Shown here piece after piece: positions 37,243-46,635 of a stretch of 64,000 nucleotides of DNA. This stretch comes from Blastococcus atacamensis (GTDB lineage Bacteria; Actinomycetota; Actinomycetes; Mycobacteriales; Geodermatophilaceae): positions 1 through 64,000 of the forward strand of contig NZ_POQU01000008.1 in assembly GCF_002938425.1 (NCBI RefSeq). The letters are read 5' to 3'. The translations under genes and the position numbers were made by a program. The notes beneath the pieces were generated by a model. It did no database searches, was not told the DNA's origin, and was given only the letters and a program-made list of their open reading frames with translations. Position 1 is the stretch's first letter. Every line of letters starts with the position of its first letter.

Positions 37243-37484
37243 CGCTCATGCCCGCACCGTCGACAAAGTCGTCGTCATGGGTCCGATGCTTTGCACCCCG
37301 GGCGCCCGGCAACTCCTGCACCCGGACCCACCGGTACTCCTCCTGACGGATGAGGGCGACCGGCCCCTCGTCCTCGAGACCCACCCACAGGTCACTTCCT
37401 GCGGCCGATGGGCGGAGGCGGTCGCGGCCCCAGAGTTCGGTACGCCGCAGTCGGTGCGGCGTCACCGGACCTGGAGGAGAGATC

Positions 37485-38288
37485 GTGACAACGGTCCAGC
37501 AGGCGACGACCGCAGCCGATGCGCTCGCGGCCGCCCACACGTACGCCGCTCGTGGAGCGGCGCTGACCAAGGTGTACGGGCACGGCGACACGCGCGTCGT
37601 CGCCCTGGACGACGTCGACGTCGACTTCCGCCGCGGGGAGTTCACCGCGATCATGGGCCCGTCGGGCTCCGGCAAGTCGACGTTGATGCACTGCATGGCC
37701 GGTCTGGACGGGCTGACGTCGGGGCAGGCCTGGATCGGCGAGACCGCGATCGGCGGACTGGACGACAAGGGTCTGACCCGGCTGCGCCGGGACAAGGTCG
37801 GCTTCATCTTCCAGGCCTTCAACCTGCTCCCCACGCTGACCGCGCTGGAGAACATCACGCTGCCGATGGACATCGCCGGCCGCACCCCGGACCGCGCCTG
37901 GCTCGACGGCGTCATCGACGCCGTGGGACTGCGGGAGCGTCTGGGGCACCGGCCGACGGAGCTCTCCGGGGGGCAGCAGCAACGGGTGGCGTGCGCGCGG
38001 GCCCTGGCGAGCCGCCCGGACATCATCTTCGCCGACGAGCCCACCGGGAACCTTGACTCCCGCAGCGGGGCCTCGGTGCTGGCGTTCCTGCGGACCTCCG
38101 TGCGGGAGATGGGTCAGACCGTCGTGATGGTCACCCACGACCCGTCCGCCGCCTCCTACGCCGACCGCGTGCTCTTCCTGGCCGACGGCCGCATCGTCGA
38201 CGAGATGCTTGCGCCGACGGCCGACCGCGTCCTCGAGCGCATGAAGGCCTTCGACACCGCCGGCCGCGTCGCAACGAAGGAGATCTGA
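37485..38288 (+). CDS. ABC exporter ATPase (MacB/LolD type)
   Basis: 267 aa. Walker A GPSGSGKST, Q-loop FIFQAFNLLPTLTALEN, signature LSGGQQQRVACARAL, Walker B IIFADEPTGNLDS, H-loop VTHDPSAASYADRV. The LLPTLTA Q-loop places it with FtsX-permease partners. GTG 37485 has GGAGGAGAG upstream. One base separates its stop from the permease ATG, so the pair forms one operon. Substrate unknown; the divergent two-component genes may control it. Confidence 0.93.
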   Translation: MTTVQQATTAADALAAAHTYAARGAALTKVYGHGDTRVVALDDVDVDFRRGEFTAIMGPSGSGKSTLMHCMAGLDGLTSGQAWIGETAIGGLDDKGLTRLRRDKVGFIFQAFNLLPTLTALENITLPMDIAGRTPDRAWLDGVIDAVGLRERLGHRPTELSGGQQQRVACARALASRPDIIFADEPTGNLDSRSGASVLAFLRTSVREMGQTVVMVTHDPSAASYADRVLFLADGRIVDEMLAPTADRVLERMKAFDTAGRVATKEI

Positions 38289-38289
38289 C

Positions 38290-40821
38290 ATGTGGCGCAC
38301 CACCTGGCGCAACCTGCTGGCCCACAAGCTCCGGCTGGCGTTCTCCGGACTCGCCATCGTCCTGGGCGTCGCCTTCGTGAGCGGCACCATGATTTTCACC
38401 GACACCCTCAACCGCACCTTCACGGCGCTGTTCGAGAGCACCGCCGCCGACGTCAGCGTGCACCCGGCAGCGGCGTTCGCCACCGGCGTCACCGGTCCCG
38501 GCGGCGGAGTCGACCGGCTGCCCTCCGCCGTGGTCGGGCAGGTCCGCGCTGTCGACGGCGTCGCCGCGGCCGAGGGCTACGTGCGGACCGAGGGCGTCTA
38601 CGTCCTGGACCAGGACGGCGAGGTGCTCGACACGGGTGGAGCGCCCGGCGTGGGCATCAGCTGGTTCGAGGAGCGCGCGCTGTCACCGAGCGAGCTCGTC
38701 GACGGGCGGGCGCCGGAACGGGAGGGTGAGGTGGCCCTGGACCGCGCGACCGCCGAGAGAACCGGCTACGCCGTCGGCGACCGGGTCTCGCTGCTCACCC
38801 CCGGGCCCCGGGTCGAGGCCGTGGTCGTCGGCGTCTTCACCTTTGGGGAGGACGGCGGCCTGGCCGGGGCCTCGCTGACCGCCTTCGATCTCGGCACCGC
38901 TCAGGCGATGCTCGGACTCGGGGACGAGTTCACCGGCATCGACGTCCGTACCGCCCAGGGGAACCCGGACGAGCAGGTGCGCGACCGGATCGCGGCGGCC
39001 GTCGGGGACGACTACGACGTGACGACGGCCCAGGAGCAGGCCGACGAACGGGCCGCCGCGCTGGAGGAGGGGCTGTCGTTCATCACTGTCCTGCTCACCG
39101 CGTTCGCCGGCATCGCCCTGTTCGTCGGCTCGTTCATCATCCTCAACACCTTCTCGATGCTGGTGGCGCAGCGGACGCGGGAGCTGGCGCTGCTGCGGGC
39201 CCTGGGCGCCGGCCGGGGTCAGGTCACGCGGTCGGTGCTCGTCGAAGCCCTGGTGCTCGGGGTCACGGGGTCGACGCTGGGCGTGCTCGGCGGCTTCGGC
39301 ATCGCCTCCGCGCTGCGCGCGATGTTCTCGACCTTCGGTCTGACCCTGGACGGCGGACTCGTGCTGTCGGCGAGCACGGTCGCGTGGAGCTACGCCGTCG
39401 GCGTCCTGGTCACGCTGGTCGCGGCCTACCTTCCCGCCCGCCGCGCCGCGGCCACGCCGCCGGTCGCGGCGATGCGCGAGGACCACGTCACGGTGGAGCG
39501 GTCCCTTCGCAGGCGCACTCTCGTCGGCACCGTCGCGACGGTGGTCGGTGTGACCGGCCTCGTGGGAAGCTTCCTGGTCGATGGCGGCACCGCCGCCCAG
39601 CTCGTCGGCATCGGCGGGCTGGGGCTGGTCCTGGCGGTGATCGCGTTGAGCCCCGTCCTCGCCCGGCCCTTCGCCCGGTCCGTCGGCGCGGTGCTCCCCC
39701 GCCTGTGGGGCACGACCGGGCACCTCGCCCGGCAGAACGCCCAGCGCAACCCTCGCCGGATCGCGGCCACCGCCTCGGCGCTGATGGTCGGGCTGGCCCT
39801 GGTCACCGCCTTCAGCATCCTCGGCGCATCAGCCAACGCCTCGGTCGACAAGCTGATCGGCACGTCCCTGCGTGCGGACTTCGTCGTCTCGACCGCGGTC
39901 GGACAGCCCTTCACGCCGGAGGTCGCCGAGCGGTTGCGGTCGGTCGACAGCGTGGACGCGGTGACGCAAGTGCGCTTCGGCTCGGCGCTCCTGGCCGACG
40001 AGGAGACGCTGATCGCCGCCGTGGACGACACGACGCTGGACCGGACGTTGGGACTGGACTACAGCGACGGCGGAAGCGCGGAGCTGGCGGGTTCCGGGCT
40101 GCTGGTCGACCAGCCCACGGCCGACCGTCACGGCTGGGCCGTCGGGGACACCGTCGAGATGGTCACACCGACCGGCCAGGCCGCCGAGCTGACCGTCGGC
40201 GGCATCTTCGCCAGCAACCAGGCGGTCGCGCCGGCGCTCGTGTCGCTGGAGACCTTCACCGCCACCGGTGGCTCGGACCTGGACCGCTACCTCTACCTCG
40301 ATGTCGCTGACGGCGCCGAGCAGTCGGTCCGGTCGGCCGTCCAGGCGGCCATCGACCCCTACCCCGTGGTCACCCTGAAGGACCGCGACGAGTTCGCCGA
40401 CGAGCAGAAGGGTCAGGTCGACCAGATCCTGATGCTCATCAACGCCCTGCTGGTGCTCTCGGTGCTGATCGCCGTGCTCGGGATCGTCAACACCCTGGCG
40501 ATGTCGGTGCTGGAACGGACGCGGGAAATCGGACTGCTGCGGGCCATCGGCATGACCCGCGAACAGCTGCGCCGGACCGTGCGCCTGGAGTCGGTGCTCA
40601 TCTCGGTGTACGGCTCGGTGCTGGGCCTGCTGCTGGGCGGGCTGCTCGGGGTCAGCCTCACACGGGCGCTGTCCGACCAGGGCATCTCCGAGCTGGTGGT
40701 CCCCGGCGTGCGACTGGCCCTCTTCCTCGCCCTGGGCGCGCTGATCGGCGTCCTCGCCGCCGTCTGGCCTGCCCGCCGAGCCGCACGGATGGAGGTTCTC
40801 GACGCCATCGCCACCGCCTGA
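38290..40821 (+). CDS. FtsX-family ABC permease, two FtsX domains
   Basis: 843 aa. N-terminal helix (about 17-37), large extracytoplasmic MacB-PCD-like domain, three-helix FtsX domain (about 260-385: FITVLLTAFAGIALFVGSFIILNTFSML), a second soluble domain with central helices (about 410-520), and a final FtsX block (about 710-835) beginning DQILMLINALLVLSVLIAVLGIVNTLAM and ending RAARMEVLDAIATA. Typical of exporters for antimicrobial peptides or lipids in actinobacteria. Followed by a strong hairpin. Confidence 0.93.
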   Translation: MWRTTWRNLLAHKLRLAFSGLAIVLGVAFVSGTMIFTDTLNRTFTALFESTAADVSVHPAAAFATGVTGPGGGVDRLPSAVVGQVRAVDGVAAAEGYVRTEGVYVLDQDGEVLDTGGAPGVGISWFEERALSPSELVDGRAPEREGEVALDRATAERTGYAVGDRVSLLTPGPRVEAVVVGVFTFGEDGGLAGASLTAFDLGTAQAMLGLGDEFTGIDVRTAQGNPDEQVRDRIAAAVGDDYDVTTAQEQADERAAALEEGLSFITVLLTAFAGIALFVGSFIILNTFSMLVAQRTRELALLRALGAGRGQVTRSVLVEALVLGVTGSTLGVLGGFGIASALRAMFSTFGLTLDGGLVLSASTVAWSYAVGVLVTLVAAYLPARRAAATPPVAAMREDHVTVERSLRRRTLVGTVATVVGVTGLVGSFLVDGGTAAQLVGIGGLGLVLAVIALSPVLARPFARSVGAVLPRLWGTTGHLARQNAQRNPRRIAATASALMVGLALVTAFSILGASANASVDKLIGTSLRADFVVSTAVGQPFTPEVAERLRSVDSVDAVTQVRFGSALLADEETLIAAVDDTTLDRTLGLDYSDGGSAELAGSGLLVDQPTADRHGWAVGDTVEMVTPTGQAAELTVGGIFASNQAVAPALVSLETFTATGGSDLDRYLYLDVADGAEQSVRSAVQAAIDPYPVVTLKDRDEFADEQKGQVDQILMLINALLVLSVLIAVLGIVNTLAMSVLERTREIGLLRAIGMTREQLRRTVRLESVLISVYGSVLGLLLGGLLGVSLTRALSDQGISELVVPGVRLALFLALGALIGVLAAVWPARRAARMEVLDAIATA

Positions 40822-40873: not shown

Positions 40874-42517
40874 TCAGAGGGACACAGGGACGCGGACGAC
40901 GACTCGGGTGCCACGCCCCGGCGCGCTGTCCACGGCGAGGCTGCCGCCGCACAGCTGCGCCCGTTCCCGCATGGTCCGCTGGCCGTGACCGCCGCCGCCT
41001 GCGGTGGGGTCGAAGCCGCAGCCGTCGTCGGTGACCATGAGCACGAGCCCGTCCCCACCCGCGTCCAGCGACACGGTGGCAGCGGATGCGCCCGCGTGCT
41101 TCACGCAGTTGTGCAGCGCCTCGCCCGCGATGCGGACCAGGTGCTCGATCGTCCCGGCGGCGACCGGCGGCATCGCCCCTGCCACCCGCACGTCCACGGG
41201 CAAGCCGTCGCGCGTCGTGCAGGCGCGCGCCAGTGCCCCCAGCTCGACGGCGAGGTCATCGGTGGACGTCTCGGGGCGCATGCCGGTCACCATCGCCCGC
41301 AGCTGGGCGATCGCCTGCTGCGACAGCGCCTCCAGGTCCCGCGCCGCCTCCTCGACCACGCCCGGCGCCCCAGACCGCAGCCCGCGCTGCACCGCCTGCG
41401 CCCGGGCATGCACGGAGAAGAGGGCAGCGATCACTGAGTCGTGCAGATCCCGACCGAGTCGGTGCCGTTCGAGCTCGGCGGCGTGCGCCGCGGCCTGCTC
41501 GCGCAGCCGCTCCTCGGCCAGCGCCACCGACGCGTGCGCCCCGAGGGCGGACCACGCGATCAGCTCTCCCTTTGTCGCAGCCGTCACCGAGCGCGGCAAG
41601 AGCAGCACCAGGCAGCCGACGACCATCCCGCCCCGGTGTAGCGGGACCTTGACGGATCCTTCCCACCCGAGGTCGCCCGTCAGGTCCGCGATCATCGCCG
41701 TCGACGGGGACGCCGCCAGACGCGTGCGTCCGTCCGACAGCAGGAGGAGCCGCCCGGCCGTGAGCAGGTCGCCTCCGGGCAGGTCGGTCAACCGCAGGTC
41801 CGCATCCCACAGCGCATCGCTGACCTCGTCGAGCACCCCGGCTCCCGCGAGCAGGGCCAGTCGCCCGTCCGGGCACTCGACCAGGACCAGGCAGGCCACC
41901 GCGCGGGACCGCGCCACCGCCTCCTCCGCCAGGCTCCCGAGGACCTCGCCGACCGATCCGCCCGCGGCGAGCCGGGCCGGCGCGGCGCCGAGGACGACCG
42001 CGTCCTGATCAGTCCTCGCCAGGCCGAATGTCGGGTGGAAGAAGGCAGGAGCCAACTCCTTGCCGTCGGCGTGCAGCACCGACCCGGACCAGGTGATGCC
42101 CACCTCGCTGCCGTCGGGACGGACGATCGTGTTGGCGTAGAAGCCGGAGTCCCCGTCCCGCTGGTCCTGCTCGAGCGCAAGCAGGTAGGCCCGCTCGTGC
42201 TCCGCGAAGGAGAGCAGGTAGTCCGCACCCTCGAGTTCCGCGAAGGGCCGGCCGACCAACCGGCACCCGGTGGGGTTCAGGTACACCCACCGGTGGTCGT
42301 CCCCGGTCACGCACACGCCGTAGCCGGACGTCTCCAGCATCTCCACCAGGGCATCGAGGCCCAGTCTGCGGAGCACGGCAGCACTGTCGCCAGCCGGCAC
42401 CGGGGCCTCGGAGGTCCGCGGTCGCGGCACGTCCACCTCGTTCCCGGCCCCGGGCGGGAACCCAGGGCCCGGCTGCCGCTGCGCGGTCTGCTCGGCCGTC
42501 CCGTCGGAGTCCCCCAC
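40874..42517 (-). CDS. PAS-GAF histidine kinase (NarL type)
   Basis: 547 aa, no membrane helices, hence cytosolic. PAS (about 55-165: GYGVCVTGDDHRWVYLNPTGCRLVG), GAF (about 180-335), HisKA_3 with intact phospho-acceptor His 359 in GRDLHDSVIAALFSVH, and HATPase (EALHNCVKHAGA, VTDDGCGFD, GQRTMRERAQLCGG). Senses an internal signal. No response regulator follows it; the divergent regulator at 43847 is the nearest candidate partner. TAACCT eight bases before the GTG suggests a leaderless message. Confidence 0.92.
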   Translation of the reverse strand: MGDSDGTAEQTAQRQPGPGFPPGAGNEVDVPRPRTSEAPVPAGDSAAVLRRLGLDALVEMLETSGYGVCVTGDDHRWVYLNPTGCRLVGRPFAELEGADYLLSFAEHERAYLLALEQDQRDGDSGFYANTIVRPDGSEVGITWSGSVLHADGKELAPAFFHPTFGLARTDQDAVVLGAAPARLAAGGSVGEVLGSLAEEAVARSRAVACLVLVECPDGRLALLAGAGVLDEVSDALWDADLRLTDLPGGDLLTAGRLLLLSDGRTRLAASPSTAMIADLTGDLGWEGSVKVPLHRGGMVVGCLVLLLPRSVTAATKGELIAWSALGAHASVALAEERLREQAAAHAAELERHRLGRDLHDSVIAALFSVHARAQAVQRGLRSGAPGVVEEAARDLEALSQQAIAQLRAMVTGMRPETSTDDLAVELGALARACTTRDGLPVDVRVAGAMPPVAAGTIEHLVRIAGEALHNCVKHAGASAATVSLDAGGDGLVLMVTDDGCGFDPTAGGGGHGQRTMRERAQLCGGSLAVDSAPGRGTRVVVRVPVSL

Positions 42518-42531: not shown

Positions 42532-42644
42532 GCCAGTGCCGACGAGCGTGGGGGTGCCTGCGGCCCGCGCGTCCTCCTCCACAGGGAGGAGAACGTGCCC
42601 CGCGACCGGTCCCGACGGAGGACCAGCTCGCGTCCGCCCTGGCC

Positions 42645-42650
42645 TAGCGT
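42645..42650 (+). promoter_or_regulatory. -10 box TAGCGT of membrane kinase (leaderless type)
   Basis: TAGCGT, 6 bases, GTG at 42657. Confidence 0.5.
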
Positions 42651-42656
42651 GGTCGC

Positions 42657-43850
42657 GTGCAACGACTGACCACCTCGATCTCGGGCTTCGCCGGGCGGCA
42701 TGCCGCCCGGCTCGACGTGGCTCTGGGCTTGCTGGTGGCCGTCTTCGGCGTCCTGTCGTTCTGGCTGACCCCGGACTCGGTGGTCGTCGACCAGCGCTCG
42801 TTCGACGCGCTGGGCGCGGGCCTCACGCTGCTCGCCGGCAGCGCGGTGGCGATGCGCGGCCGGTGGCCCGTCGGGGCGCTCGTACTTGCGTCCGCCGCTG
42901 CGTTGGTCCCGCTGCAGCTCGGCTACCCCCAGAGCGTCGCCACCTACGCGCCGTTGCTCGTCCTCTACACCGTCGCGGCGTGGCGGCCGGTGCGGGTGAG
43001 CGCGCCGGCCGCCGTTGGTGTCTACCTGCTGGTCGGCTCGCTGCTGATCGCCGGCCCGGTGGCGACCACCGTCACCGACTGGGTCAACAACACCTTCATG
43101 ATCGTCGCCGTCTGGGCCGTCGGCTGGTCCGTGCGCAGCCGCCGTGCCCAGAACGCCCGCCGGGAGGAGCGCAACCGTGCGGTGTTCGAGGCACGCGAGG
43201 CCCGTGCCCGGGCCACCGAGGTGGACGAGCGGGCGGCGATCGCCCGGGAGATGCAGGATCTGGTGACCCACGGCATCACCGCCCTGACCGTCCACACGGC
43301 CGCGGCCCGGCGGATGCTGCGCAGCGATCCCGACACGGCCGAGCACCTGCTGGCACAGGCCGAGCGCGCCGGCCACGAGGCAGTGACCGAGATGCGCCGC
43401 ATCTTCGGGGTGCTGCGCCCGTCGGACGACGTCGCGCACCTGCGTCCGCAACCGAGTCTCGCCGACCTCGCGGCGCTCGTCGACGGTGCTCGCGCCGACG
43501 GGATGGACGTCGAGCTGGTCAACCGCGGCACGCCGGTCGAGGTCGACCCGGGAGTGGCGCTGACCGCCTACCGCGTCGTCCAGGAGGCGCTGGGCAACGT
43601 CCGCCAGCACGCCGGCCGTGCCGTCGCCCGCATCACCCTGGACTGGTGCGACGGCAGCCTGTCCCTGGGGGTGTCGGACGACGGCCGCGGATCCCTCATC
43701 TGGTCTGCCGACCAGCCTCCTGGCGGCCACGGCCTCACCTCGCTAAGCGAACGGGTCCGCGCCTACGGCGGAGCGCTCTCGGCGGGCCCGCGAGCCGGCG
43801 GCGGCTTCGTCGTGACCGCCCGCCTCCCCCTCGATCGGAGCCCGTCGTGA
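42657..43850 (+). CDS. Membrane histidine-kinase-like protein lacking the phospho-acceptor His
   Basis: 397 aa. Four or five membrane helices in residues 20-158, a short coiled coil, and a HisKA_3/HATPase module. The H-box reads DERAAIAREMQDLVTHGITAL where family members have E-L-H-D: Gln 200 (CAG at 43254) replaces the phosphorylated His (CAC/CAT). The ATP-binding part looks intact (EALGNVRQHAG, VSDDGRG, GGHGLTSLSERV). It cannot autophosphorylate in the usual way; it may act as a sensor subunit, phosphatase or decoy. Overlaps the regulator gene by GTGA. Confidence 0.9.
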   Translation: MQRLTTSISGFAGRHAARLDVALGLLVAVFGVLSFWLTPDSVVVDQRSFDALGAGLTLLAGSAVAMRGRWPVGALVLASAAALVPLQLGYPQSVATYAPLLVLYTVAAWRPVRVSAPAAVGVYLLVGSLLIAGPVATTVTDWVNNTFMIVAVWAVGWSVRSRRAQNARREERNRAVFEAREARARATEVDERAAIAREMQDLVTHGITALTVHTAAARRMLRSDPDTAEHLLAQAERAGHEAVTEMRRIFGVLRPSDDVAHLRPQPSLADLAALVDGARADGMDVELVNRGTPVEVDPGVALTAYRVVQEALGNVRQHAGRAVARITLDWCDGSLSLGVSDDGRGSLIWSADQPPGGHGLTSLSERVRAYGGALSAGPRAGGGFVVTARLPLDRSPS

Positions 43851-44515
43851 CGATCCGCGTCCTGCTCGTGGACGACCAGCCGCTCCTGCGGACCGGCTTC
43901 CGCCTCATCCTCCAGACCGAGCCCGACATGGAGGTCGTCGGCGAGGCCGCCGACGGCGAGGTCGCCCTCGCCCAAGTCCGGGCTTTGCAACCCGACGTCG
44001 TCCTCATGGACATCCGGATGCCCCGCATGGACGGCGTGGAGACCACCCGCCGGCTGGGCCAGCTGGACTCCCCGCCGCGCGTGCTGATCCTCACCACCTA
44101 CGACCTGGACGAGTACGTCGTCGAGTCGCTGCGCGCAGGGGCGTCGGGGTTCCTCCTCAAGGACGCCCCCGCCGACGACCTGGTCGACGCCGTCCGCGTG
44201 GTTCACCGCGGGGACGCCGTGATCGCCCCGCAGGTCACGCGTCGGCTGCTCGATCGCTTCGCCCAGCAGCTGCCTGCCACGACCGCCGCGACGTCGAAGG
44301 CGCCGTTGCCCCAGCTCACCGACCGCGAGCACCAGGTCCTGCTGCTCGTTGCCCGCGGCCTCTCCAACGCCGAGATCGCCGCCGAGCTGGTTCTCAGCGA
44401 GACCACCGTGAAGACCCACGTCAGCAACCTCCTCATGAAGCTCGGGCTCCGCGACCGGGTGCAGGCCGTCGTGCTCGCCTACGAGCGCGGCCTCGTCACG
44501 CCATCCGGGTCGTGA
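43847..44515 (+). CDS. NarL/LuxR-family response regulator
   Basis: 222 aa. Receiver with acidic pocket DD at 9-10, phospho-acceptor Asp 55 (VVLMDIRMP), Thr in ILTTYD and Lys 105 (GFLLKDAP). LuxR-type HTH at about 155-215 (LTDREHQVLLLVARGLSNAEIAAELVLSETTVKTHVSNLLMKLGLRDR). Translationally coupled to the upstream kinase-like gene. Since that protein lacks its His, phosphate may come from the PAS-GAF kinase at 40874. Likely targets are the flanking ABC exporters. Confidence 0.95.
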   Translation: MTIRVLLVDDQPLLRTGFRLILQTEPDMEVVGEAADGEVALAQVRALQPDVVLMDIRMPRMDGVETTRRLGQLDSPPRVLILTTYDLDEYVVESLRAGASGFLLKDAPADDLVDAVRVVHRGDAVIAPQVTRRLLDRFAQQLPATTAATSKAPLPQLTDREHQVLLLVARGLSNAEIAAELVLSETTVKTHVSNLLMKLGLRDRVQAVVLAYERGLVTPSGS

Positions 44516-44654
44516 GGACGAGCGCCCCCTCGTGCCTCCTCCTCGCGGAGGAGCGCAGGACGGGACCGGCGGAGGACGCCCCGCCCCGTTCGCCTCCCTA
44601 GCGTCGAGGACGAGCGGGACAGGTGGTCCCGACGCCGATCCGCTGGAGGCCCTG

Positions 44655-45035
44655 ATGACCTCGATCCTCGTGTCCGATGAGGCGCTAACCGTCCGCCTTC
44701 CCTTGGTGAGCCGGATCGCCGGAGTGCTGGGCGAGCAGGTCGTACCGCGCTCAGCCATCACCGGTGCCGACGTCGTGACCGACGGGCTCGCCGCGGCCCG
44801 CGGCCTGCGCGCGCCGGGCCTCGCCATCCCCGGCCGGCGCGAGATCGGCACCTGGCGTGGCCGCGGGGCGCGACGCTTCGTCGACGTCCGCCGGGGCCAG
44901 CCGGCCCTGCGCCTGCGCCTACGCGGACAGCGCTACGACGAGCTGCTCATCGGCCACGATGACGCCGCCGCGCTGGTCGCCCAGCTGGCCCCGTCCACCG
45001 GCTCCCCCCTCCCCCAGAAGAGATCGCGGGGATGA
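44655..45035 (+). CDS. PH-like small hypothetical protein
   Basis: 126 aa. Beta-rich sequence (LTVRLPLVSRIAGVLGEQVVPRSAI ... GTWRGRGARRFVDVRRGQPALRLRLRGQRYDELLIGHDD) with the alternating pattern of bacterial PH-like domains found in many actinobacterial proteins. Function unknown. GGAGG lies before ATG 44655. It follows the response regulator by 139 bp, in the same direction. Confidence 0.7.
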   Translation: MTSILVSDEALTVRLPLVSRIAGVLGEQVVPRSAITGADVVTDGLAAARGLRAPGLAIPGRREIGTWRGRGARRFVDVRRGQPALRLRLRGQRYDELLIGHDDAAALVAQLAPSTGSPLPQKRSRG

Positions 45036-45481: not shown

Positions 45482-45676
45482 ATGCCTTCGAGCACCGTGC
45501 TGGCCCTGGCACCGCTGCTCCTGCTCGCCATCGGCGTCGTCGTCTACGCCTTGGTAGACCTCGCGCGCTCACCAGATCCGCGGTGGCTGCCGCGGTGGGG
45601 GTGGACCCTGATCTGCTTGCTCTCCATCCCCTTCGGCGCCGTCGCCTACCTCGTCCTCGGGCGTCAGCAGCGATGA
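45482..45676 (+). CDS. PLDc_N-type small membrane protein (YxlE-like)
   Basis: 64 aa, two helices (residues about 6-27 and 42-59) with the PLDc_N signature YALVDLARSPDPRWLPRWGWTLICLLSIPFGAVAYLVLGR. In Bacillus the same kind of protein (YxlE) precedes the ABC pair YxlFG; here too it overlaps the ATPase start (ATGA). Probably a regulator or accessory of the exporter. Confidence 0.85.
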   Translation: MPSSTVLALAPLLLLAIGVVVYALVDLARSPDPRWLPRWGWTLICLLSIPFGAVAYLVLGRQQR

Positions 45677-46635
45677 GCAACCGCACGTCGCTCTGGGCCA
45701 GCCTGGCTCGCTACCCGACCGTCGACCCCGGCCACCCGTGGGCCATCAGTACCTCCGGCCTCACCCGGAACTACCCGGGTGGGGCGGGCGTCCACGACAT
45801 CGACCTGCGCGTGCCCCGGGGCAGCGTCTACGGCCTCGTCGGCCCCAACGGCGCCGGCAAGACGACCCTCCTGTCCATCCTCACCGGCCTGCGGCGCGCC
45901 GACGCCGGGTCGGTCACGACCGCAGTACCGGTCGAGCGCATCGCCGTCTGCCCCGACGTTCCCGACCTCGAGCCGTGGCTGACCGCCGCCGAGGTCGTCG
46001 AGCTCGCCCGCTCCCTGAGCGCCCCGCGCATCCCCGCCACAGGCGTGCTCGAGGCACTGGCCCACGCCGGCCTGGGGGACGTGGCGCACCGCCGGGTCGG
46101 AGGGTTCAGCCGCGGCATGCGGCAGCGGGTCGGCCTGGCCGCGGCCCTGGTGACCGACCCGGAGATCTTGGTGCTCGACGAGCCCACCAGCGCCCTGGAC
46201 CCTGCCGGCCGGGCGGGGATGCTCGGCCTGATCGCCGCGATGGCCGGCGACCGCACGGTCATCATGTCCACGCACATCCTCGCCGACGTGGAACGGGTGG
46301 CCGACACCATCGGCGTGCTACGCGACGGTCGCCTGCTCTACCAGGGCGCCACCCAGGATCTGCTCGCCGACCACGCCCGGCCCGGGTGGACGGTGCGGCT
46401 GCGCGAGGGAGCAGACCGGGCTCGGGCGGCTCTCGAGGGCCAGCCCTGGGTCACGCGGGTCACCAGCCCCGCCCGCACCGTCCTGCACGTCGACGTCACC
46501 AGCGCCGACGCTGCCGAGACCGGTCTGGTGCCCGTGCTCGCCGCCTGCGGCGCACGGATCGTGGCGATCGAGCCGCACACCGCCGACCTGGAGACCGCGT
46601 TCCTGTCCCTGACCTCAACCCGGGAGAACCCGTGA
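45673..46635 (+). CDS. ABC exporter ATPase (YxlF-like)
   Basis: 320 aa. Walker A GPNGAGKTT, signature FSRGMRQRVGLAAAL, Walker B LVLDEPTSALDP, H-loop MSTHILADVERVADT, and a C-terminal extension of about 90 residues typical of DrrA/YxlF-type exporters. Start and stop overlap the neighbours (ATGA, GTGA), so translation is coupled through the three genes. Confidence 0.93.
   Translation: MSNRTSLWASLARYPTVDPGHPWAISTSGLTRNYPGGAGVHDIDLRVPRGSVYGLVGPNGAGKTTLLSILTGLRRADAGSVTTAVPVERIAVCPDVPDLEPWLTAAEVVELARSLSAPRIPATGVLEALAHAGLGDVAHRRVGGFSRGMRQRVGLAAALVTDPEILVLDEPTSALDPAGRAGMLGLIAAMAGDRTVIMSTHILADVERVADTIGVLRDGRLLYQGATQDLLADHARPGWTVRLREGADRARAALEGQPWVTRVTSPARTVLHVDVTSADAAETGLVPVLAACGARIVAIEPHTADLETAFLSLTSTRENP

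Follow-up and report, generated by a model that had tools for sequence, protein, structure and literature searches.

Within the window, the whole 64 kb stretch of DNA that was analysed, two histidine kinase genes lie divergently side by side: Gln-HK, encoding a membrane sensor, and PAS-HK, encoding a PAS-containing kinase (Table 1). A response regulator gene follows Gln-HK, and genes of an FtsX-type exporter lie beyond PAS-HK; this group is called the module below. The regulator had receiver and LuxR-type domains above the Pfam cut-offs and shared 84-89% identity with its counterparts in the three syntenic loci (genomes G020, G049 and G055). As a tblastn query (E-value 1e-3) it matched one place only, and tblastn placed a single such regulator in the 64 kb window, together with two kinases that are related to Gln-HK and PAS-HK. 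The start of the exporter ABC ATPase was inferred at the GTG at 37485, the listed open reading frame being 37350-38288. The small gene downstream of the regulator had no match in the G055 stretch, and a second copy of it, 48% identical, was observed in G020 (L041:13699-13995). In G049 another kinase-regulator pair (L042:2524-3804) lies about 6 kb from the module. Six bases 5' of the Gln-HK GTG start we observed TAGCGT (42645-42657), which resembles the -10 box of a leaderless transcript and is identical in G049 and G055 and changed in G020.

Table 1. Features of the module and its surroundings, in window coordinates (strand as + or -; a point marks features without strand).
Feature	Position	Strand	Remarks
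Weaker palindrome match, 3 mismatches	37338..37354	+	before the FtsX-type exporter operon
ABC ATPase of MacB/FtsX-type exporter	37485..38288	+	tblastn match to the other ABC ATPase
MacB/FtsX-type permease	38290..40821	+	syntenic in all four loci
PAS-HK, divergent PAS-HisKA_3-HATPase histidine kinase	40874..42517	-	Pfam, hydropathy
PAS-HK Ala364, phosphatase position (D+4)	41426..41428	-	
PAS-HK acceptor His359, intact	41441..41443	-	
Palindrome TCCTCC-N5-GGAGGAG	42575..42591	.	shared divergent promoter; candidate regulator-binding site
Gln-HK, membrane HisKA_3 sensor	42657..43850	+	397 aa, GTG start; Gln at phospho-acceptor position
Gln200 codon CAG	43254..43256	+	acceptor-His position; aligned to DesK position 188
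D201-L-V-T-H205, retained DxxxH phosphatase motif	43257..43271	+	alignment of 23 kinases
NarL/LuxR-type response regulator	43847..44515	+	222 aa, GTG start; overlaps Gln-HK stop codon
Same palindrome TCCTCC-N5-GGAGGAG	44537..44553	.	before gene downstream of regulator; source of search pattern
Small conserved gene without Pfam match	44655..45035	+	found in G020 and G049
ABC transporter ATPase	45667..46635	+	

Pfam recognised in Gln-HK a HisKA_3 domain (PF07730; 53 bits, cut-off 24), a HATPase_c domain (32.6 bits, cut-off 26.4) and a DUF7134 sensor domain (33.3 bits, cut-off 27), and in a simple hydropathy scan N-terminal residues 15-44, 70-90 and 112-140 were hydrophobic enough for membrane segments. 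In an alignment of 23 histidine kinases, Gln-HK and its relatives, residues E310, N314, G357 and G359 of the ATP-binding site (N- and G2-box) were invariant, and DDGRG was present in all four Gln-HK orthologues, so that the N, G1 and G2 elements of an ATP-binding domain were all found. The first-pass annotation, which had called the membrane sensor and the ATP-binding boxes intact and the gene still coupled to its response regulator, is borne out on each point, the regulator GTG at 43847 overlapping the Gln-HK stop codon.

The H-box, read from the sequence as AREMQDLVTHG, spans 43242-43274. It had been placed at 43242-43268; the start was correct, but 43268 belongs to the threonine before the histidine. 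Residue 200 is Gln because its codon is CAG, and as had been claimed this is the acceptor position: Gln200 falls at His188 of DesK both in the sequence alignment and in a structure model (mean pLDDT 85). The best structural match of the model was DesK (3ehj, Z 17.3, rmsd 11.9 over 191 residues), and against the phosphatase state of DesK (7ssj) it gave Z 16.6 and rmsd 8.2 over 178 residues. Gln-HK therefore has no phospho-acceptor histidine in its H-box, as an autokinase of the HisKA_3 family would, and was classed as a pseudokinase.

The DxxxQ/H phosphatase motif was found in Gln-HK as D201 and H205. Both residues were invariant among the 23 kinases, an alignment in which residue 200 is His in all rows except the three Gln proteins, the rows outside the orthologue group having been picked by an H-box motif containing His. 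H205, the fourth residue after Asp201 (D+4), takes the position of DesK Gln193 in the sequence alignment and in the structure model, and Gln193 is reported as the D+4 residue needed for phosphatase action (PMC5231405). Phosphatase action of HisKA_3 proteins is described as needing the Gln or His of this motif (PMC11502775), and the acceptor histidine of NarX, also HisKA_3, as nonessential for it (as cited in PMC5231405). We considered it very improbable that the two residues of Gln-HK had exchanged roles, with H205 the new phospho-acceptor and Gln200 its helper. A nearby downstream histidine has been suggested as substitute acceptor in Caulobacter CCNA_03265 (PMC11481889), but H205 is not new: every kinase in the alignment has it, all but the three Gln proteins together with His200, and its counterpart is DesK Gln193, not His188. 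The possibility raised earlier that the THG histidine is the true acceptor of the family likewise found no support and was rejected from the alignment to DesK.

Orthologues of Gln-HK at an E-value of 1e-70 or better were present in 4 of 112 genomes of the family, namely the window, G020 (70%), G049 (61%) and G055 (62%). The same four, and none further, were found at this threshold in 397 genomes of the order, a set drawn from a larger group, with scoring limited to each genome's best candidates. In 394 genomes of the class a search at 1e-62 gave only relatives at a greater distance, and no further close orthologue; a plasmid collection gave one 41% match, within an 11.9-Mb Nonomuraea record, and a search of genome contigs one distant relative only. 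The D and the H of the DxxxH motif were kept in all four orthologues. Gln (CAG) was observed in the window, G049 and G055, the last two belonging to another genus than the window, so that Gln spans two genera. The fourth, G020, has His (CAC); Gln is thus not fixed (three of four, n = 4), which for these four loci answers a question the first-pass annotation had posed, and as it had pointed out a single base separates CAG from CAC.

Selection was estimated by the method of Nei and Gojobori, mainly between G049 and G055, the two most similar carriers of Gln. The sensor dN/dS for this pair was 0.25 overall, with 0.14 in the DHp and 0.23 in the CA domain, compared to 0.28 for PAS-HK and 0.15 for the regulator; more distant sensor pairs gave 0.33-0.48. 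The values within this pair suggest purifying selection on the Gln form, catalytic domain included.

An H-box pattern containing His matched 650 sites in 110 of the 112 family genomes (14 for the reversed-pattern control), and 2 of 104 such sites that were read were not kinases. With Gln in its place the pattern matched 18 sites in 17 of the 112 genomes (8 for the reversed control). All 18 were read: three are histidine-kinase H-boxes, each within the Gln-HK orthologue group, while the other 15 were by eye not kinase-like, about as the reversed control predicts. No kinase H-box with Gln was therefore found outside this group among the pattern matches in the 112 genomes. At the class level, in a draw of 394 genomes that left out G049 and G055, the only genome matched by a stricter Gln pattern was that of the window; with His the stricter pattern yielded 61 sites, spread over 24 of the 60 class genomes searched.

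These counts bear on a relaxed or recent loss, in which phosphate from PAS-HK would have made the acceptor histidine dispensable and the residue drifted, Gln being nothing special, or in which Gln is a base-call error. Such a loss fits the histidine kept in one orthologue and the single change from CAC in G020 to CAG. We nevertheless judged it improbable, given one and the same substitution in three genomes that span two genera, a dN/dS of 0.25 where both carriers have Gln, and no other Gln-bearing kinase H-box among the pattern matches in the family. Sequencing error and simple decay were each judged unlikely from the three genomes with Gln and the dN/dS values, and the earlier statement that the gene is not simply decaying agrees with Gln in three of four orthologues and with purifying selection between its two most similar carriers.

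The neighbouring PAS-HK has both an acceptor histidine and an ATP-binding domain (HisKA_3, 54.1 bits; HATPase_c, 53.7 bits), and a PAS match of 22.1 bits, slightly below the cut-off of 22.6. Hydropathy gave a single marginal hydrophobic stretch (296-315), on which ground the protein is predicted to be soluble. Among the 112 family genomes its orthologues (E-value 1e-60 or better) occurred in four, the very ones that carry Gln-HK orthologues, and in all four loci it adjoins Gln-HK divergently, by the same FtsX permease. The acceptor histidine was present in all four PAS-HK orthologues. At D+4, where a bifunctional HisKA_3 sensor has Gln or His, all four have Ala (HDSVIA, HDSVSA, HDSLSA and HDSLSA), a complementary defect that the first-pass annotation had not mentioned. 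G020 combines His in the sensor with the same Ala-bearing partner, so the module does not require Gln.

Alanine at D+4 was not observed among the relatives that we surveyed. In 29 relatives of PAS-HK from the class (29 of the 32 highest-ranking hits from outside the module, in a search giving 64 sites in 246 genomes with the window's own counted) this residue was Gln in 28, Lys in one and Ala in none, family relatives with E-values between 1e-60 and 1e-25 lying outside the count, so that an Ala there could be missed. A thirtieth relative, in the window's own genome (L002), has Gln. Among 102 sampled kinases of the family, mostly from the window's genus and found with a pattern that selects one H-box style, 62 had His, 39 Gln, one Ser and none Ala. 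This sample comprised 104 distinct sites, after 13 repeats were dropped, minus two judged by eye not to be kinases (L102 and L147); it omits the module PAS-HKs and the module loci L039-L065, and includes the G020 orthologue (L009). The relative with Lys (L171, G536) is possibly another phosphatase-deficient sensor. Two other sites were unusual: a HisKA_3-like kinase with the H-box HDVVTSH, in which the phosphatase-type His comes one residue late (L106; G003, C9, near 80885), and a kinase frame that ends shortly past its H-box and may belong to a decaying gene (L123; G008, C1, near 1467934).

The effect of such residues has been studied by mutation. Histidine kinases of S. agalactiae were deprived of phosphatase activity by placing Ala at the DxxxQ/H residue (PMC11502775), and chrS-Q191A of C. 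glutamicum is termed a phosphatase mutant (PMC9491836); Q191 is probably the D+4 residue of ChrS. With its acceptor histidine kept and Ala replacing the phosphatase Gln, PAS-HK should accordingly be a kinase only.

The promoters of the module share a palindrome. Its copy at 44537 supplied the search pattern, and the match there is therefore by construction. With up to three mismatches to this copy the window gave five matches, both strands counted, at three places, 37338, 42575 and 44537, against 0.9 expected, and none of 100 shuffles gave five. In a looser pattern the spacer could vary, and this pattern also picked up 55626, a site outside the module whose spacer is longer; the reversed control of this pattern matched once in the window and not in the three other loci. 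In the aligned promoters of the four loci the palindrome was present in both module promoters at every locus, followed by a second conserved block ending GGAGGA. The copies in G055 were the most degenerate and were missed by the strict pattern, while in G020 a copy was also observed before the FtsX operon (L041:11610). The palindrome was not found around the three outgroup systems described below. Its presence in the promoters of both kinases suggests one regulon, and we infer that it is the binding site of the regulator.

A related system was found in three genomes of another family, with a single kinase, a sensor 39-43% identical that has the usual His, and with regulators 67-69% identical to that of the window. 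An FtsX permease was near this system in two of the three genomes, and tblastn of the 13 kb read revealed no second kinase. In the sensor tree, where 7 of 18 inner branches are open, we used the clade of the four orthologues (support 100/100) and its two pairs, the window with G020 (93/76) and G049 with G055 (100/99); this clade was joined to the three outgroup sensors with moderate support (81/82). One kinase with His and no second kinase in the outgroup suggests that an ordinary one-kinase system gained a kinase-only PAS sensor, after which the acceptor would have disappeared from the original sensor both in the window's species and in a second genus. Because the outgroup has His, two losses are as parsimonious as one loss followed by regain in G020.

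We favour, as rather probable, a bifunctional sensor split in two, with PAS-HK phosphorylating the regulator and the pseudokinase Gln-HK dephosphorylating the same regulator. Since one protein has lost the acceptor histidine and kept the phosphatase site and the other shows the reverse, they probably divide a task that a single protein normally performs. Gln-HK would be incapable of autophosphorylation and would serve the regulator encoded 3' of it as a signal-gated phosphatase, and the phosphate on that regulator would come from the divergently encoded PAS-HK, acting as a kinase only. The membrane sensor would thus be the off-switch and the cytosolic PAS-HK the on-switch, each with its own signal, and the palindrome would probably be the site through which the regulator acts on the promoters of the kinases and the downstream gene and, more weakly, on that of the FtsX exporter. 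We hold the balance to be about even for the wider proposal that these are adjacent HisKA_3 proteins with complementary losses, serving one regulator with two inputs, which arose when a kinase-only sensor joined a one-kinase system. The observed residues, conservation, synteny, co-occurrence, selection and shared palindrome are what this reading builds on, and from them both enzymatic activities, phosphatase in Gln-HK and kinase in PAS-HK, are inferred. That PAS-HK serves this regulator is suggested by its position, its co-occurrence and the shared promoter; the other kinase-regulator pair near the module in G049 speaks against this pairing. Against the split as a whole are the small number of loci (n = 4) and the His in place of Gln in one of them, G020.

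Gln-HK may instead act in trans, its ATP domain phosphorylating PAS-HK or another kinase, or its dimer helices modulating such a kinase, through a mixed dimer, and the intact ATP site, with its N- and G2-box residues and DDGRG conserved, may also suit trans-phosphorylation. Over the transmitter, the Gln-HK and PAS-HK types are only about 27-35% identical, which is probably too low for mixed dimers. Native HrrS and ChrS of C. glutamicum were reported to heterodimerise in two-hybrid assays (PMC9491836). We regard action in trans as unlikely, as it leaves unexplained the invariance of D201 and H205 and the loss of the phosphatase residue in PAS-HK. An intact ATP site is also compatible with a phosphatase role, because the phosphatase-competent complex of DesK contains an ATP analogue (PMC5231405). 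It is also conceivable that Gln-HK is a non-catalytic reader in the manner of DivL and that, being neither kinase nor phosphatase, it would bind the regulator in its phosphorylated form and so titrate or relay it. DivL has Tyr at the acceptor site, is without both activities and is described as sensing DivK~P, but its target is another kinase, CckA (PMC4211667). This reading also seems improbable to us, as the phosphatase motif of Gln-HK is conserved next to a partner without one of its own.

The preferred reading, of a kinase and a phosphatase acting on one regulator, has partial counterparts. DivL belongs to a DHp family different from that of Gln-HK, PleC is a histidine-kinase homologue, ChrS and HrrS are of the HisKA_3 type, and to our knowledge DivJ and PleC do not represent adjacent complementary active-site losses. 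The DesK-DesR and NarX-NarL systems resemble the Gln-HK system in DHp type, DxxxQ/H motif and NarL-type regulator; they differ in keeping the acceptor histidine and both jobs in one protein, where Gln-HK naturally has Gln. The natural replacement of the acceptor while other boxes remain is shared by DivL of Caulobacter, which unlike the proposed Gln-HK has no phosphatase activity and controls a kinase (PMC4211667). DrBphP of Deinococcus, like the proposed Gln-HK, is a histidine-kinase-like sensor whose reported output is phosphatase activity (PMC8292422), and DivJ and PleC are described as kinase and phosphatase acting on one regulator, DivK (PMC4211667), as proposed for our pair. ChrS and HrrS are cross-talking actinobacterial sensors, and a pseudokinase form of ChrS has been studied along with the phosphatase mutant Q191A; this form arose by a frameshift in the ATP-binding domain during laboratory evolution and not by replacement of the acceptor histidine (PMC9491836).

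Pseudo-histidine kinases (DivL), phosphatase sensors (DrBphP) and kinase/phosphatase pairs (DivJ/PleC) are thus already known. In the open-licence papers searched we recognised no natural pair of kinase-only and phosphatase-only neighbours with complementary active-site losses. If the reading is correct, the module would be a natural counterpart of the laboratory mutants that separate kinase from phosphatase activity, and would allow one to ask directly whether a HisKA_3 sensor can function, and be selected, through its phosphatase side alone. It would also illustrate a route by which two-component systems gain a second input, in which a kinase-only sensor is added and the old sensor keeps the phosphatase role.
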